64,000 bases of DNA from Aliarcobacter cryaerophilus (GTDB taxonomy: Bacteria > Campylobacterota > Campylobacteria > Campylobacterales > Arcobacteraceae), in assembly GCF_014352935.1 (NCBI RefSeq), contig NZ_CP060694.1, positions 1,488,001 through 1,552,000 of the forward strand. Direction: 5' to 3'. Below the pieces are notes generated by a model that was not told the origin of the DNA, made no database searches, and saw only the letters and a list, made by a program, of their open reading frames with translations. The translations under genes and the position numbers were made by a program. Every line of letters starts with the position of its first letter. The first letter of the stretch is position 1. This document shows positions 28,712 to 34,954 of this stretch, one piece after another.

Positions 28712-28726
28712 TGCAACTAGGTTGCA
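28712..28726. promoter_or_regulatory. Palindromic operator 1 (znuA side)
   Basis: TGCAAC-TAG-GTTGCA, a perfect 6-bp dyad with a 3-nt centre, 28 bp upstream of the znuA start. Similar to the element 50 bp away. A likely Zur/Fur-type operator by position; binding is inference. Confidence 0.65.
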
Positions 28727-28761: not shown

Positions 28762-28776
28762 TGCAACTTAGTAGCA
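28762..28776. promoter_or_regulatory. Palindromic operator 2 (Fur-family gene side)
   Basis: TGCAACTTAGTAGCA, an imperfect version of the same dyad, 30 bp before the Fur-family start and just upstream of a TAGAAT -10-like sequence. The first eight bases (TGCAACT) match operator 1 in the same orientation. Confidence 0.6.
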
Positions 28777-28805: not shown

Positions 28806-29168
28806 ATGATAAAAGAAAATTTTTCAAATATAAAACTTACAAGTGCCAGAAAATCTATCTTGGATATACTTATAAACTCAAGTAAACCATTAAGTTATGA
28901 AGATATAAAAGATAAAATATCTATGGATAAAGCAACTTTTTACAGAAATATCACGATTTTTGAAGAAGAAAATCTTATAAACTCTTTTGAGTCAAATGAT
29001 AAAAAAAGATATTTTGAAATAAAAGATATTGAGCATTCACACTTTATTTGTAACAACTGTTCAAATATTGAGTGTATTTTTGAAAAACCAAACTTTCTTT
29101 TACAAGATTATAAAATTGAAAATATTATCCTAAAAGGAAAATGTAAGGAGTGCAATAAAAATGGCTAA
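28806..29168 (+). CDS. Fur-family metal-responsive regulator (Zur-like)
   Basis: 120 residues, slightly short. The winged helix has LTSARKSILDILINSSKPLS and recognition helix MDKATFYRNITIFEEENLI. The dimerisation domain has FEIKDIEHSHFICNNCSNIE and a final GKCKECNKNG, giving two CxxC pairs for structural zinc. Because it diverges from znuA across two matching palindromes, a zinc-sensing (Zur) role is the simplest reading, but a Fur or PerR role cannot be excluded. The stop overlaps the nhaA start by eight bases, placing the regulator at the head of the nhaA-P1B ATPase operon. Confidence 0.88.
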   Translation: MIKENFSNIKLTSARKSILDILINSSKPLSYEDIKDKISMDKATFYRNITIFEEENLINSFESNDKKRYFEIKDIEHSHFICNNCSNIECIFEKPNFLLQDYKIENIILKGKCKECNKNG

Positions 29169-30426
29169 AATACTTTCCGCTAGCTACTTAAGAAAAATTG
29201 TAAATATAAAGAATCAATACAAATTTATAAGAAGCTTTATATCAACTGCAACTTTAAGTGGAATTCAGCTCTTTTTGGTGACAGTTTTGGCTGTTTATAT
29301 AGCAAACTCTATGTTTGCTCCACAATATTTTGAACTTTTAAAAACACATTTTAGCTTCTCTTTTGGAACACACACTTTTTCTATGAGCCTTCAGCACTGG
29401 ATAAATGATGTTTTAATGGCACTATTTTTCTTAGTTGTTGGTCTTGAAATAAAAAGAGATATGCTAGTAGGTGAGCTTTCAAGTCCAAAAAAAGCATCAT
29501 TTCCTATAATTGCAGCACTTGGAGGGATGATTATTCCAGCAATATTGTATCTAAGTGTAAATCAATCTCATCCAACAGGATTTGGAATTCCTATGGCTAC
29601 AGATATTGCTTTTGCCTTAGGAATTTTAATGCTTTTAGGAAAAAGAGTTAGTCTATCTTTAAAAGTATTTTTAGTAACTTTAGCTGTTGTAGATGATTTA
29701 GGAGCAATAGTTGTAGTTGCAATATTTTATACAAGTGAACTTCATTATGACTTTTTACTTTATTCAGTTTTAACATATTTTATTCTTATGATTTTTAACT
29801 ATTTTAATCTAGTACGTGTTATGCCTTACCTATTTATTGGTATTTTTCTATGGATTTTTATACATAGTTCTGGTATTCACTCTACAATAGCTGGAATTCT
29901 TCTAGCTTTTGTAATTCCTTTAAAAGCAAAAAATACAACAGTTGAAGAGATTGAAGAGCATAACTCAAAAAGTCCACTTTTGAGAGTTGAACATGCACTT
30001 CATAACTTTAGTGCATTTATTATAATGCCTGTTTTTGCATTTGCAAATGCAGGTGTTGAACTAGATTTTGCAAGTGTTATAGAGAATAAAACAATTGTTC
30101 TTGGAGTATTTTTAGGTTTACTTATTGGTAAGCCTATTGGAATTTTAGCTTCAACTTATCTTGCAACAAAATTTAAAATTAGTGAAAAACCAGCAAATGT
30201 AACTTGGAGTGAAATTTTAGCAGTTGGATTCTTAGCAGGAATTGGATTTACTATGTCAATTTTTATCTCTGTTTTAGCTTTTGATGATCCACATATTGTA
30301 AGTGCGGTAAAAATTGGTATTTTTGCTAGTTCAATTAGTGCTGCAGTTATTGGAGTTATTTTTCTTCTAATTGTGGGGAAAAAAGAGACACAAAAAGAGT
30401 TTCTAGAAGGTCTAAATGATAAATAG
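29161..30426 (+). CDS. nhaA: Na+/H+ antiporter NhaA
   Basis: A 421-residue inner-membrane antiporter. The signature motifs are PMATDIAFALGILMLLGKR (discontinuous helix) and LAVVDDLGAIVVVAIFY, which carries the two adjacent ion-binding aspartates; FGLEIKRDMLVGEL-type loop and FAGIGFTMSIFIS near the C-terminus also match. It exports sodium and regulates pH. The gene overlaps both neighbours: the Fur-family regulator by 8 bp and the HMA2-like gene by 11 bp. Such coupling to metal genes is unusual. Confidence 0.95.
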   Translation: MAKILSASYLRKIVNIKNQYKFIRSFISTATLSGIQLFLVTVLAVYIANSMFAPQYFELLKTHFSFSFGTHTFSMSLQHWINDVLMALFFLVVGLEIKRDMLVGELSSPKKASFPIIAALGGMIIPAILYLSVNQSHPTGFGIPMATDIAFALGILMLLGKRVSLSLKVFLVTLAVVDDLGAIVVVAIFYTSELHYDFLLYSVLTYFILMIFNYFNLVRVMPYLFIGIFLWIFIHSSGIHSTIAGILLAFVIPLKAKNTTVEEIEEHNSKSPLLRVEHALHNFSAFIIMPVFAFANAGVELDFASVIENKTIVLGVFLGLLIGKPIGILASTYLATKFKISEKPANVTWSEILAVGFLAGIGFTMSIFISVLAFDDPHIVSAVKIGIFASSISAAVIGVIFLLIVGKKETQKEFLEGLNDK

Positions 30427-30730
30427 TGAAACTATCATAAGAATTTCTAGTTATTTCACAATTATTGCACATACTCCTGGAAGATTAAGAGTTAGAGTAA
30501 ATCCAAAAATAGTCAATGAAGCAGAGAATATATCTTTAGATGATATTACAAATCTTCCAAAAAAAATATCTGGTATTGAAGATATTAAAATAAATAAAAT
30601 TATAGCTTCTGTTACAATTATATATAATCCTACTATTTTTAAGCCAAAACTATGGGAAGATTTGATAAAAAATGAAAATATAGATGAAATAACACAAATT
30701 ATAAATAATCTATCAAAGGAGGCTATATAA
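30416..30730 (+). CDS. HMA2-like domain protein
   Basis: 104 residues with a single ferredoxin-like heavy-metal-associated-type (HMA2) fold. IIAHTPGRLRVRVNPKI contains the H-x-PGR-x-R-x-R motif seen in these proteins, followed by ISGIEDIKINKIIASVTIIY. It lacks the CxxC of classical HMA domains and has no cysteine at all, so it is not a copper/zinc chaperone of the usual kind. The ATG lies inside the nhaA end with AAGG upstream. It overlaps the ferritin-like gene by one base. The HMA2/P1B-6 association is known from ferrosome-type clusters; its role here is inference. Confidence 0.75.
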   Translation: MINSETIIRISSYFTIIAHTPGRLRVRVNPKIVNEAENISLDDITNLPKKISGIEDIKINKIIASVTIIYNPTIFKPKLWEDLIKNENIDEITQIINNLSKEAI

Positions 30731-31416
30731 TGCCCATAGATTACAATATTTTAATTAAAAAAAGAGTTGATTTAAATTCAAATATAAATATTGATGAGCA
30801 GATTTTACAAATCGCTATTTATGATGAGTTTAAAGCTTACGAAACTTATAGCAAAATAATTGAAACTTTTGGAAATATAGATCCATTTATCAATATTAAA
30901 GAGTCTGAAGCAGTACACTATAGTATGCTTATAAAATTAGCAGAAAAATATAGTGTAGAAGTTCCAATAAATGACTGGAAAGATAAAATAGAAATCCCAA
31001 ACAACTTAATAGAGTGTTATGAATTGGGAGTTGCAGCAGAGATTGAAAATATTGCTATGTACAATAATCTTTTAATAAATTCAACAAAAAGTGATATTAC
31101 AGATGCACTTTTTAGACTTCAAGCTGCCTCTTTTAACAATCATTTACCAGCTTTTAGATCTTGTGTAATAAATTACTACAATAGCTTTCACTCTTCTTCA
31201 AATAGTAGCGAAGATATTATGCAAAAAATGCAAGAGTACCAAGAGATTGTAAATAATCTTATGAATGGAAATATAGATGAAAATACAATTTCAAATCTTA
31301 GTTCAAAACTATTTTCAAATATAAGTTTTCAATTTTTAGGTGGCGCTGTTAGTGGAGCTGCAATTGTAGCACTTTTAAATCAATTTTTAGAAAATCAAAA
31401 TTCAAACAAGGAGTAA
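30730..31416 (+). CDS. Ferritin-like protein with C-terminal membrane/Gly-zipper segment
   Basis: 228 residues. The first ~150 form a four-helix ferritin-like/rubrerythrin-type domain (DUF2202-like). Candidate di-iron ligands are in YDEFKAYETY (E33, E38), KESEAVHYSMLIKLAE (E60, H63) and ELGVAAEIENIAMY (E98, E104, E106). After a Ser/Asn-rich linker, the C-terminus is a hydrophobic glycine-rich helix, FQFLGGAVSGAAIVALL, followed by a short polar tail, which should anchor the protein to a membrane. That tail is unusual for this family. It has a perfect AAAGGAGG ribosome site. A role as ferroxidase or iron sensor on the membrane of an iron organelle is inferred from context. Confidence 0.72.
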   Translation: MPIDYNILIKKRVDLNSNINIDEQILQIAIYDEFKAYETYSKIIETFGNIDPFINIKESEAVHYSMLIKLAEKYSVEVPINDWKDKIEIPNNLIECYELGVAAEIENIAMYNNLLINSTKSDITDALFRLQAASFNNHLPAFRSCVINYYNSFHSSSNSSEDIMQKMQEYQEIVNNLMNGNIDENTISNLSSKLFSNISFQFLGGAVSGAAIVALLNQFLENQNSNKE

Positions 31417-31419
31417 AAA

Positions 31420-31695
31420 ATGGCATTACCATTTATAGCTGGTTTAGCTCTTGGAGCTTTAGGAGTTGTTGCTTATAAAAATAGAGATATCATTAAAAAA
31501 AAGGGTGAAAATATTTTTAAAGATGCAAAAGAAAAAGGTGAAATTTTAAAAAAAGATATTGAAACAAAAATTTCACAAACAAAAAAGAAGTTTGAAAAAG
31601 AAGATACAAAAAAAATAGTTGAAAAACCAAAAGCTACAAAAAAAACATATTCAAGAAAGCCAAAAACTACTGAAAATAAAGAGGCAAATTTATGA
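31420..31695 (+). CDS. Small membrane protein with basic coiled tail
   Basis: 91 residues: one short N-terminal glycine-rich helix (ALPFIAGLALGALGVVAYKN), then a Lys/Glu-rich helical tail (KKKGENIFKDAKEKGEILKK and on) ending in a Lys/Thr-rich disordered end. The layout resembles YtxH-type small proteins. I do not recognise a specific family. It lies three bases after the ferritin-like gene and overlaps the next by four. Possibly a membrane-bending or anchoring component; no function is shown. Confidence 0.7.
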   Translation: MALPFIAGLALGALGVVAYKNRDIIKKKGENIFKDAKEKGEILKKDIETKISQTKKKFEKEDTKKIVEKPKATKKTYSRKPKTTENKEANL

Positions 31696-32036
31696 AAAAT
31701 ATAAATACAGGAACACCTAGAAATGTTTTAGGTCATGTAATAAGTGGTGCAATAGCAAGTGCTGTTATTAGTGGTGCAATAAATTACAAGAAATATCAAA
31801 ACGGTCAAATAAAAAAGTGTGAAGCAATAAAAGATACTACAAAAAAAGCAACTCAAGGTGCTATTGTTACAGGAAGTGCTATTGCTACAACGAACTATAT
31901 TGGTGAAGGAAACTATCTTAGAGCTTTAACATCAGCTTCTATTGGAATGGCTGGAATTTATGCATTAGAAATAATTGAAGAAAAACTAGAGCAAAAATAC
32001 TTAATAAACCAAAATCTAGAATTAGAGGAAAACTAA
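31692..32036 (+). CDS. Small Gly-zipper membrane protein
   Basis: 114 residues with two or three glycine/alanine-zipper helices: VLGHVISGAIASAVISGAI, QGAIVTGSAIATTNYIG and LTSASIGMAGIYALEIIEE, then an acidic C-terminus. Glycine-zipper helices pack closely in membranes and recur in magnetosome- and ferrosome-associated proteins (general knowledge). No catalytic motif. The ATG overlaps the preceding stop, and the next gene follows directly. Confidence 0.7.
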   Translation: MKNINTGTPRNVLGHVISGAIASAVISGAINYKKYQNGQIKKCEAIKDTTKKATQGAIVTGSAIATTNYIGEGNYLRALTSASIGMAGIYALEIIEEKLEQKYLINQNLELEEN

Positions 32037-32037
32037 A

Positions 32038-32406
32038 ATGGCTAATAACAATCAAAATTTTAATCAATATAACACAGATATAAATAGTACAAGAAATAGC
32101 AATCAAAATGGGCTAAATATAAACCAAAATCCATACATCAATAGTGGTGTAAATCAAAATTTTATAGGACAAAATCCGAATAATCAAATACAAAACCAAT
32201 CAAGCTCTTTTTTAAATGGGGATTTTATAAAAGGTGCATTAATTGGAGCAGTAGCAACTTATATTTTAACAAATAAAAATGCTCAAGAGAGTATTTTTGA
32301 AACAATAAACAAAGTAAAAAATCTTGCAACTGCTGGCTTTGAAGAGCTAAAAGAGAGAATTGAAGATGCAAAAGCAGCTTCAAAAGTAAATGAACAAGAG
32401 TTTTAA
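32038..32406 (+). CDS. Asn/Gln-rich YtxH-like membrane protein
   Basis: 122 residues. The first 60 are a low-complexity Asn/Gln/Ser-rich segment, then one glycine-zipper helix (FIKGALIGAVATYILTNKNA) and an amphipathic helical tail (VKNLATAGFEELKERIEDAK). The helix-plus-charged-tail half is YtxH-like. The Asn-rich N-terminus is likely cytoplasmic and disordered. One base separates it from the previous stop, and it is five bases before the P1B ATPase gene. Confidence 0.7.
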   Translation: MANNNQNFNQYNTDINSTRNSNQNGLNINQNPYINSGVNQNFIGQNPNNQIQNQSSSFLNGDFIKGALIGAVATYILTNKNAQESIFETINKVKNLATAGFEELKERIEDAKAASKVNEQEF

Positions 32407-32411
32407 AAATA

Positions 32412-34529
32412 ATGAATAAAAAATTTATAAAAGTTCATCAAATAGGACTTAGAGCTAGATATAAGCTTGAAATACTAAAAGATAATTTTATAGATGAAGA
32501 TATTTTAAAAGGTTATTTTAATAATTTTAGTGAAATACAAAGTATAAGAGTAAATAAAAAAGCATATTCAATAATATTTGAACTCAAAAAAGATATCTTT
32601 CAAGATATAGAAAAGAGATTAAAAACCATTACTTTAGAAAATCTCTTAAAATCTGCATCAAAAAGTGAAGCTAGTGTTTGTGTATCTTGTACATCAAACA
32701 AAGAGCCATCTATAAAAGGAACTCTACTTGCAACTACTGCTTTGGTTGCCGAAAGATTGGTTACAAATAATAGTTTAAAAGCTGCTATTACAAGCGTTGC
32801 TTCAGTTCCTCTTCTAATTGATGGTACAAAAGAGCTTTTTAATGATGGTTTAACTTCTCATGTACTTGAAGCAGCAGCTGTAGCTATTTCTATTTATAGA
32901 AAAGATTATCTTGCAGCAAACTCAACAAATGCTATGTTAGAGCTTGGTGAATATATAGAAGAAACTACTGTTCATAAAAGTGATGATTTACTAAAAGAGC
33001 TAGCTCGCCCAAATATTGAAGAAGCTTGGGTTGAAAGAAAAGTAGATGGAAAAGTAGTAGAAGTTTTAGTAAAAACAGCTGAACTAAAAGTAGGTGATAT
33101 TGTAGTAGTTGGAGCAGGAAGTACTATTGCAATAGATGGTCATATAATAGATGGAGCAGGTACAATTAACCAAGTATCAATGACTGGAGAGGCAGAACCA
33201 ATAGCAAAATATAGAGGAGATAGAGTAATATCTGGAACTATTGTCGAAGAAGGAAGATTTAGAATTTGGGCTGAGCAAGTTGGTGCAAATACGGCAACTC
33301 AAAGAATAAAACATTACATAGAAAACTCTTTAAATGAAAAGTCATCTGCTCAGCTAAAAGCAAATCGACTTGCAGACAAGCTAGTTCCTGTTACTTTAGG
33401 ATTAGCAACCGCTGCTTATATTTTTACAAAAGATTTTCAAAGAGTTGCATCTGTACTTCAAGCTGATTACTCTTGTGCTTTAAAACTTGCAACTCCTGTT
33501 GCTTTTAAATCTACAATTTCAAAAGCTGGTCATAGTGGAATTATGATAAAAGGTGCAAAATCTATTGAAGCACTAAGTAGTGCTGATACCTTTGTTTTTG
33601 ATAAGACAGGAACTCTTACAAGTGGTGAATTAGAAGTTATAAGTGTTGATTCCTATGATAAAAATTGGAGTGAAGAGAAGCTTTTAAATCTTACAGCTTC
33701 AACAGAAGAGCACTATTTTCATCCTGTAGCTGAAGCTGTTGTAAAGGCAGCAAAAGAGAGAGGTTTTGTACATATGCATCACGAAGAGGTTCAATTTATA
33801 GTAGCCCATGGTGTAAAAACAGAAATAAAAGGTAAAAATGTAGTAATAGGAAGCAGACATTTTTTAGAAGATGATGAAAAAATAGATTTTTCTTCATACA
33901 AAAAAGATATTGAAAACTCTTTAAAAAAGAGTGATACTTTACTATATGTTGGATATGATGGTAAACTTTTAGGAACTATTGGACTTAGTGATGAGTTACG
34001 AGAAAATACAAAAGAGAGTATAAAAAGATTAAAATCTCTTGGTGTAAAAAATATTGTAATGCTAACAGGAGATACAAAAACAAAAGCTTTAAAAATTGCT
34101 GATGAGTTAGGTATTAATGAGGTAAAAGCCGAACTTTTACCTCAAGATAAAGCAAATATTGTAAAAGAGTTGATGCAAGAGGGTAAAAAAGTTGCTTTCA
34201 TTGGAGATGGTATAAATGATGCTCCTGCTCTTATATCTTCTCATGTTGGAATTTCAATGAGTCGTGGAGCTGATATAGCAAAAGCAACTGCTGATATTAG
34301 TCTATTAAAAGATGATATCGCTGCTGTTGTTGAAGCAAAAGAGTTTGCAAATAAAACCATGAATTTGATAAATACTAACTTCAATGCAACTGTTGGAATA
34401 AATAGTGCAATTCTTTTAGGTGCAACTTTTGGTCTATTCTCTCCTATTGTAACAGCTGTATTACACAATGGAACAACAATAGGATTACTATTAAATTCGA
34501 TAAAAGGGGTAAAATTAGCTAAAAAATAG
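32412..34529 (+). CDS. P1B-type (P1B-6-like) metal-transporting ATPase
   Basis: 705 residues. The N-terminus is a degenerate HMA2-like domain (VHQIGLRARYKLEI) with a CVSC pair at C90/C93 before the membrane part. The actuator is MTGEAEPIAKYRGD; the phosphorylation site is FDKTGTLTSG (D397); the N-domain has EEHYFHPVAEAV; the hinge is MLTGDTKTKA and FIGDGINDAPAL. The membrane metal site reads DYSCALKLATPVAF (S354, C355), so the usual CPC is replaced by YSC/SCA. That matches the P1B-6 subgroup, which includes FezB of ferrosomes and has been linked to iron. The metal and direction are inferred, not shown. It follows the small membrane genes by five bases and lacks a strong ribosome site. Confidence 0.9.
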   Translation: MNKKFIKVHQIGLRARYKLEILKDNFIDEDILKGYFNNFSEIQSIRVNKKAYSIIFELKKDIFQDIEKRLKTITLENLLKSASKSEASVCVSCTSNKEPSIKGTLLATTALVAERLVTNNSLKAAITSVASVPLLIDGTKELFNDGLTSHVLEAAAVAISIYRKDYLAANSTNAMLELGEYIEETTVHKSDDLLKELARPNIEEAWVERKVDGKVVEVLVKTAELKVGDIVVVGAGSTIAIDGHIIDGAGTINQVSMTGEAEPIAKYRGDRVISGTIVEEGRFRIWAEQVGANTATQRIKHYIENSLNEKSSAQLKANRLADKLVPVTLGLATAAYIFTKDFQRVASVLQADYSCALKLATPVAFKSTISKAGHSGIMIKGAKSIEALSSADTFVFDKTGTLTSGELEVISVDSYDKNWSEEKLLNLTASTEEHYFHPVAEAVVKAAKERGFVHMHHEEVQFIVAHGVKTEIKGKNVVIGSRHFLEDDEKIDFSSYKKDIENSLKKSDTLLYVGYDGKLLGTIGLSDELRENTKESIKRLKSLGVKNIVMLTGDTKTKALKIADELGINEVKAELLPQDKANIVKELMQEGKKVAFIGDGINDAPALISSHVGISMSRGADIAKATADISLLKDDIAAVVEAKEFANKTMNLINTNFNATVGINSAILLGATFGLFSPIVTAVLHNGTTIGLLLNSIKGVKLAKK

Positions 34530-34605: not shown

Positions 34606-34725
34606 ATGCCATTTTTATTACCATTAGCGACTTTAATCACAGGTGTTTTGACAGTTAAAACTGTAAATAAAACTATAAAAACTTATGAAAGAAGAAAAAA
34701 AAGAGATGAAAGAGCTAAAATTTGA
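34606..34725 (+). CDS. Micro-protein with one membrane helix (39 aa)
   Basis: A 39-codon gene with AAAGGATA eight bases before ATG. It encodes PFLLPLATLITGVLTVKTV, then a strongly basic tail (TYERRKKRDERAKI). Its N-terminus resembles that of the 91-residue protein in the same cluster (short hydrophobic glycine helix, then basic tail). The last ~40 nt overlap the next gene in another frame. A TACAAT box at 34572-34577 may serve as a separate promoter. Confidence 0.6.
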   Translation: MPFLLPLATLITGVLTVKTVNKTIKTYERRKKRDERAKI

Positions 34726-34954
34726 TTTAGAACTTCAAAAAGAAGTTGCAAAAATTGGAATGAGTGCAACTTTAGGTGCAACTGTTGTAACTTCAATGTT
34801 TATGAAAAATAAAATTGCCAAAAATACTCATATTATTGCAGGTGTTGCATTTTGCGGTTTTGCACTATGGCATCACATGCTTTACCAACCAAAAAAATCA
34901 AAAAAAGAGAATGAAAAAAATATTATAAATCCAACAAAATCTTCAATAAAATAA
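34685..34954 (+). CDS. Small two-helix membrane protein
   Basis: 89 residues from the first ATG. The alternative ATG six codons later (MKELKF) is equally possible, since both lie inside the overlapping 39-codon gene. Two hydrophobic helices, about residues 24-40 (IGMSATLGATVVTSMFM) and 48-67 (HIIAGVAFCGFALWHHML), are followed by a Lys-rich tail. Possibly translated by coupling with the nested upstream gene. No family is recognised. It is the last gene before pyrH and probably belongs to the P1B ATPase cluster. Confidence 0.62.
   Translation: MKEEKKEMKELKFDLELQKEVAKIGMSATLGATVVTSMFMKNKIAKNTHIIAGVAFCGFALWHHMLYQPKKSKKENEKNIINPTKSSIK

Follow-up and report, generated by a model that had tools for sequence, protein, structure and literature searches.

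Three small membrane proteins of a ferrosome-type gene cluster in Aliarcobacter cryaerophilus and their probable role in a membrane scaffold

Ferrosomes are small compartments in which bacteria store iron, and magnetosomes are magnetic compartments of other bacteria; both are bounded by a membrane. To our knowledge it is an open question how the membranes of ferrosomes get shaped and filled. Six fez genes are reported to underlie ferrosome formation in Rhodopseudomonas palustris CGA009 (PMC12016538), and C. difficile is reported to require FezA and FezB (PMC12574912). The ferrosome cytochrome FezC is described as a DUF4405-like protein that binds haem b (PMC11334425). The magnetosome protein MamC is described as having two membrane helices that flank a mineral-interacting loop, in which two acidic residues face the lumen (PMC6206293). 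A search of the open-licence literature returned no paper linking the ferrosome to MamC, Arcobacter, YtxH, the glycine zipper or DUF2202.

Here we describe a gene cluster in a 64,000-nucleotide stretch of the Aliarcobacter cryaerophilus contig NZ_CP060694.1, which we call the window, and compare it with these systems.

The cluster and its relation to fez loci

The cluster reads HMA, ferritin-like protein, s91, s114, s122, FezB-like P1B ATPase, s39 and FezC-like cytochrome (Table 1). The genes s91, s114 and s122 are open reading frames of 91, 114 and 122 amino acids, all on the forward strand and directly 5' of the P1B ATPase gene, which begins after a gap of five bases behind s122 and thus behind the block 31420-32406. 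The first-pass annotation had pointed out these three consecutive small reading frames, and they are genuine genes whose order is kept in relatives. The whole cluster is a tight same-strand run with overlaps or gaps of at most five bases as far as the ATPase and a gap of 76 bases beyond it. The HMA protein narrowly misses the cut-off of the Pfam HMA_2 model, with 29.9 bits against 30 (E-value 6.1e-7).

Table 1. Features of the cluster and its upstream region, in window coordinates.
Feature	Description	Position	Strand	Basis
operator-like palindrome	15 bases, TGCAACTNAGTTGCA type	28712-28726
operator-like palindrome	15 bases, same type	28762-28776
fur-like	short Fur-family regulator	28806-29168	+	Pfam FUR 5.3e-16
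nhaA-like	NhaA-like antiporter	29161-30426	+	name assumed from the sequence, no family search
hma	HMA_2-like metal-binding-type domain, 104 aa; first of the core	30416..30730	+	Pfam HMA_2
ferritin-like	DUF2202 protein with C-terminal GxxxG membrane helix at about residues 200-222	30730..31416	+	Pfam DUF2202
s91	N-terminal Gly-zipper helix, then long Lys-rich tail	31420..31695	+	invariant G8/G12
s114	small helical membrane protein, probable distant MamC relative	31692..32036	+	hhalign, AF2
s122	head rich in Asn/Gln and bearing NPY; then Gly-zipper helix FIKGALIGA and an amphipathic C-terminal part	32038..32406	+
NPY motif	N31-P32-Y33 of s122	32128-32136	+
ATPase	FezB-like P1B ATPase, TM4 stretch VLQADYSCALKLATPVAF	32412..34529	+	TIGR01525
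s39	39-aa single helix with basic tail; outside the Gly-zipper helix type	34606..34725	+
s89	FezC-like half-cytochrome, DUF4405-like, probable b-type haem protein	34685..34954	+

In a survey of 104 genomes of the family (ATPase at E<=1e-80, s114 at E<=0.01) the ATPase was found in 64, and s114 in the same 64. From these positive genomes we fetched 60 loci outside the window, leaving out three genomes (split over contigs, at a contig edge, for room) and the second copy of one genome. The ferritin-like, s91, s114, s122 and ATPase genes are each present in 60/60 of these loci, with the core order kept in all. The hma gene was found in 59, the remaining locus being cut by the contig end. Less constant are the 89-aa gene, present in 53 of the 60 loci, a Fur-family gene (49 loci) and the 39-aa gene (47 loci).

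Among 397 sampled Campylobacterota genomes (ATPase at E<=1e-150, s114 at E<=0.001), 135 carry the ATPase and 128 carry s114, all 128 within those 135, i.e. s114 was found only where the ATPase is also present. Outside the family, 40 loci were fetched out of 97 positive genomes. All 40 contain hma, s91, s122 and the ATPase, and likewise s114, which is fused to s122 in one of them; 37 of the loci have the ferritin-like gene and 38 have the 89-aa gene. With these few gene absences, the core order is kept in nearly all of the 40 loci. The closest named relative lies on an Arcobacter plasmid, with an ATPase that is 82% identical. A 133-kb plasmid of Arcobacter sp. DSM 115972 (L152) bears the entire cluster, which may therefore move between strains.

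Two further observations concern ATPase genes. At one locus (L081) the FezB-like gene is split in two reading frames of 308 and 324 aa, either a broken gene or a sequencing error. In 7 of the 60 family loci (L108-L111, L113, L114, L116) and 9 of the 40 loci outside (L261, L262, L264, L275, L278, L281, L283, L285, L298), hma is preceded on its own strand by the gene of another P1B-type ATPase, which has an SCPC motif.

The ATPase of the window matches TIGR01525 with 488 bits against a cut-off of 346. It is 47.7% identical over 675 aa to the ATPase of a Rhodopseudomonas six-gene cluster, and the TM4 stretch VLQADYSCALKLATPVAF is identical in both. It is accordingly of the FezB type, probably of class P1B-6. 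The collection was scanned with the piece of the ATPase around the fourth membrane helix and the best 80 of 428 relatives were kept; together with five plasmid loci these make 85 loci, 80 of which have s114 homologues. The five s114-negative loci are that of Cereibacter (L156), where the neighbour of the ATPase is too divergent for the s114 model, and four on contigs with 3.4-8.5 kb of stored sequence.

Six genes are found in Rhodopseudomonas sp. BR0M22 (L175), Azospirillum, Paramagnetospirillum caucaseum and Aeromonas, in the order HMA2 protein with a FezC-like C-terminus, HMA, s91-like, s114-like, s122-like and ATPase. Judging from gene number and genus, the Rhodopseudomonas-type six genes are presumably the published RPA2333-2338. 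The 89-aa protein of the window aligns with the C-terminal part of the HMA2 protein from Azospirillum (probability 87.8) and matches the Pfam DUF4405 model with an E-value of 0.0054, which is under the cut-off; 8 of 18 alignment members match at E<=0.01. Its residues H49 and H63 are histidines in 92/92 sequences. As a side observation, the FezC-like protein of one locus (L111:9101-9736) carries a fused SpoIIAA-like domain (71 bits in Pfam), and the same fusion is suggested for L109, L110, L113 and L261-L264 by similar length alone.

The window thus holds a FezB-type P1B ATPase, a DUF4405-like cytochrome with conserved histidines, weak by Pfam and with haem predicted, and small accessory genes in a conserved order with FezB. 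Because of the homology to the six genes, the FezC-like DUF4405 half and the identity of the ATPase including its TM4, we read the locus as ferrosome-type. On sequence grounds we regard it as one form of an already known type of organelle gene cluster, linked to proven fez genes by way of an R. palustris relative and the secondary literature.

Contiguous with the cluster on its upstream side are the short Fur-family gene and the NhaA-like gene, whose product we take to be NhaA; a divergent ZnuA-like gene adjoins them. The pair of short regulator and nhaA is present in 7 of the 60 family loci. Many relatives have a larger Fur gene adjoining the cluster, which is absent at the cluster of the window; both regulators, the larger Fur and the short one, are present in L069 and L070. 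The genome has two further Fur-family genes. Between the ZnuA-like and the short Fur-family gene lie two 15-base operator-like palindromes, and a matching pair is found in 7/7 fetched loci that share this arrangement. Counted over the whole window with 3 mismatches allowed, such palindromes are not above chance. A promoter scan gave fewer promoter-like matches than the shuffled mean, and a terminator scan gave 5 terminator-like matches against a mean of 2.2, none of them convincing for the cluster.

A position behind a short Fur-family regulator and NhaA and near a ZnuA-like gene would also suit a plain metal-export operon, and P1B ATPases are mostly exporters. The ATPase would then move iron or some other transition metal out to the periplasm and no organelle would form, the HMA and ferritin-like proteins would be cytosolic buffers and the small proteins would be subunits of the ATPase. 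We consider this quite unlikely, as the genes correspond in homology and in content to the six-gene cluster that is reported to make ferrosomes in R. palustris, and a FezC-like cytochrome and a MamC-related membrane protein would be unusual in export operons.

Glycine-zipper helices and the ferritin-like protein

A strict GxxxG motif is present in the helices of s91 (MALPFIAGLALGALGVV), s122 (GDFIKGALIGAVATYIL; moderately hydrophobic, Kyte-Doolittle 1.35) and the C-terminus of the ferritin-like protein (FQFLGGAVSGAAIVALL), and missing in those of s114 (VLGHVISGAIASAVISG) and the 39-aa protein (MPFLLPLATLITGVLTV). A glycine zipper had been proposed for all three small proteins; it is borne out for s91 and s122, but s114 has no strict GxxxG. 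In the background of the same genome GxxxG is found in 36 of 410 TM-like segments (9%; 370 background ORFs), and among background short proteins with one or two TM-like segments in 2 of 59. The first-pass annotation had named a lack of helix conservation as a refuting outcome, and this outcome did not occur. The helices are conserved: G8 and G12 of s91 as well as G66 and G70 of s122 are glycines in 101/101 sequences each, and both glycines of the ferritin-like motif in 97/98. In s91 they are fixed despite a mean column identity of 38% overall. The motif goes beyond chance here because these glycines never vary, while its mere presence is modest evidence. In the proteobacterial loci GxxxG lies in the most hydrophobic stretch of 77/77 s91-like and 83/83 s122-like proteins, among those assigned.

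We compared the helices by profile-profile alignment. The C-terminal ferritin helix and the helices of s91 and s122 match one another pairwise with probabilities of 93.5, 87.0 and 84.5; the E-values are 2.2e-7 for ferritin with s91, 4e-6 for ferritin with s122 and 6.9e-6 for s91 with s122. For each of the three pairs, none of 100 column-shuffled controls reached the score. In a further hhalign comparison s91 was found to be related to s122 with an E-value of 6.6e-6. The first helix of s114 (s114a) matches the ferritin helix (probability 84.5, E-value 6.9e-6), more weakly the s122 helix (55.5, 1.2e-4) and hardly the s91 helix (10.9). The helices of the 89-aa protein reach at most 14.9 against the Gly-zipper helices. 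For the 39-aa helix the probabilities range from 0.2 to 30.4, including 0.5 and 2.4, with the 30.4 obtained against s91. The helix style that the first-pass annotation had seen in all of these proteins is therefore common to the ferritin C-terminus, s91, s122 and in part s114a, and does not extend to the 39-aa protein, which we rejected as a Gly-zipper member for want of a GxxxG and of a clear profile match.

The aligned stretches span 19-23 columns. Together with the frequency of GxxxG among TM-like segments of the genome and its absence from s114, this shortness leaves room for convergence, where the helices would be small-residue anchors that form separate homodimers or nothing, with no joint assembly. 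That the glycines are fixed while the rest of s91 diverges, that no shuffled profile reached the observed scores and that s114 and s122 occur as gene fusions all argue the other way, and we regard separate anchors as rather doubtful. The approximately 20 helix columns by themselves fit descent and convergence alike; either way, to judge from the alignments, one helix face is strongly constrained in three proteins of the operon.

The soluble parts of s91 and s122 differ. The otherwise variable Asn/Gln-rich head of s122 contains the NPY motif, conserved across 97 to 98 of 101 sequences and repeated in some relatives. The Lys-rich tail of s91 might, as a guess, be an amphipathic helix that coats the membrane; one weak match to an apolipoprotein domain was found among 22 alignment members.

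The ferritin-like protein meets the gathering score of Pfam DUF2202 with 24 bits against a cut-off of 22. In the AF2 model, residues 11-150 form a block with a pLDDT of at least 88 and the four-helix ferritin fold, which aligns to bacterioferritins with Z 17.1 and rmsd 2.0 over 134 residues (residues 19-156); the C-terminal helix is modelled at low confidence (<50). We assigned E33, E60, H63, E104 and H138 as presumed iron ligands on the basis of the alignment; the full set is present in 71 of 98 sequences. Outside the family they are all kept in 12 of 37 and changed in 25 of 37, and the GxxxG helix stays. The anchor is thus under firmer conservation than the iron-binding residues, which speaks for a structural role of the group as a whole.

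s114, s122 and the relation to MamC

The AF2 model of s114 consists of helices 12-36, 42-71 and 75-113 with a mean pLDDT of 88. Its fold gave no hit at E<=0.001 against viral structures, and its sequence gave nothing meaningful against PDB sequences. In the NCBIfam MamC model, 20 of 22 s114 alignment members match at E<=0.01, the best with 6.3e-10; the window protein itself scores 24.5 bits (24.6 in the genome search), below the cut-off of 100. True MamC proteins, which pass this cut-off, were taken from L238 and L239, reached via Paramagnetospirillum caucaseum and Magnetospirillum sp. SS-4. These two organisms each have a fez-type cluster (L165 and L176) in addition to a true mamC (L238 and L239).

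With hhalign, the 22 s114 sequences match MamC with a probability of 90.7 and an E-value of 1.2e-6 over 89 columns, and 100 s114 sequences with 95.4 and 1.8e-8. The score of 41.6 for s114 with MamC was reached by none of 1,090 controls, whose maxima were 22.6 (200 shuffles), 29.9 (200 block shuffles, the best overall), 16.1 (2 reversed MamC) and 27.5 (688 hydrophobic ORFs).

The likeness might nevertheless be one of composition between Gly/Ala-rich hairpins, with no common descent. Of 14 control genomes, 5 also yield matches to the MamC model at E<=0.1 that stay below its cut-off, a single-sequence BLASTP of s114 against MamC is non-significant (E-value 0.13), and the proteobacterial s114-like proteins do not match MamC (probability 0.7; 0/16 match the model). 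On the other hand, no control reaches the observed score, an independent set of 39 distant s114 alone still matches MamC with a probability of 93.5 and an E-value of 2.3e-7, and the match of 89-91 columns includes the loop. The other small proteins of the cluster also behave differently, with probabilities of 2.3 for s122 with MamC, 0.6 for s114 with s122 and 17.1 for s114 with s91. We consider composition alone to be unlikely. By profile-level descent, s114 is likely a relative of MamC that stands outside MamC proper.

A direct link from the proteobacterial s114-like proteins to MamC was rejected. The connection passes through the Campylobacterota proteins, which match the proteobacterial s114-like set with a probability of 96.4; adding proteobacterial sequences to the alignment lowers the match of s114 with MamC to 87.6.

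We placed the acidic pair of the MamC loop on the alignment by our own reading, by which D48 of s114 aligns with one of the two residues; this position is D in 57 and E in 5 of 100 sequences. The second position is K52 in the window and mostly R, K or L in the family, so s114 does not have the pair. Its loop is net basic with 7 K/R and 2 D/E. Under the positive-inside rule this points to the cytosolic side, in contrast to the loop of MamC.

The comparison with magnetosome proteins made in the first-pass annotation is thus right in that s114 is related to MamC at profile level, whereas the cluster is of the ferrosome kind. We rejected the label of a magnetosome cluster, as the genes present are those of fez clusters and s114 neither reaches the cut-off for MamC nor has its acidic pair.

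The genes s114 and s122 are joined in a single reading frame in 7 loci, 6 of 79 proteobacterial ones and one (L279) among the 40 Campylobacterota loci outside the family, and in 0/60 family loci. Their fusion in two phyla suggests that both proteins work side by side.

A possible shell and comparison with known systems

Gene order, co-occurrence, the invariant GxxxG, the helix similarity, the fusions and the MamC homology lead us to the view that the products of the three genes probably make up a small scaffold in the membrane of a compartment of the ferrosome type that stores iron. We infer the following mechanism. The FezB-like ATPase would pump ferrous iron into vesicles derived from the inner membrane, and the FezC-like half-cytochrome would carry electrons across the vesicle membrane. 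The common GxxxG helix face would hold the ferritin-like protein, s91 and s122 together, perhaps also to the ATPase, and the soluble parts, i.e. the ferritin domain, the Lys-rich tail and the Asn-rich head, would coat the vesicle. The MamC relative s114, which would pair with s122, would belong to the same shell and may touch the mineral.

More tentatively, and as a possibility that we favour less, ferrosomes and magnetosomes may share a membrane protein family, with s114 as the counterpart of MamC that together with s122 organises vesicle membrane and mineral. If true, a mineral-organising shell would be older than, or common to, ferrosome and magnetosome, and the ferritin-like protein would be docked to this shell via the same GxxxG face. 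What emerges is a set of three protein families, two invariant glycines as a contact that can be mutated, a pair of partners backed by fusions and a possible component common to both organelles. It also places ferrosome-type clusters across much of the Campylobacterota, with a membrane-anchored ferritin-like protein as an extra part.

Four known systems resemble parts of the cluster. YtxH-like proteins (Pfam: PF12732) likewise have a short Gly-rich helix followed by an amphipathic part, and the s122 orthologues of the Arcobacter plasmid and of Azospirillum are annotated as 'YtxH domain-containing'. The small proteins of the window do not match YtxH at E<=1, let alone at the gathering score, and the few relatives that do, 3/22 and 2/22 alignment members, match weakly; the YtxH-like label first given to the small proteins is accordingly weak and membership was rejected at the Pfam level. 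The ferritin-like protein shares family and fold with the DUF2202 protein MJ0754 (PDB: 3q4n), with a sequence match of E-value 1.2e-5, a structural Z of about 16 and 23-24% identity in the structural alignment, and differs from it by the additional C-terminal GxxxG helix. With MamC (Mms13), s114 shares profile-level homology over the helices and the loop and one aligned acidic position that is mostly D, but it differs in its score below the cut-off, the basic loop, the mostly R, K or L residue at the second acidic position and the ferrosome-type context.

The closest system is the R. palustris-type six-gene fez cluster. Both have HMA proteins followed by s91-, s114- and s122-like proteins in that order, a FezB-like ATPase with the same TM4 stretch and a FezC-like cytochrome. 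The FezC-like half is fused to an HMA protein at the start of the cluster in the six-gene type, whereas here it is a separate gene after the ATPase, and a membrane-anchored ferritin-like protein and the 39-aa protein are added.
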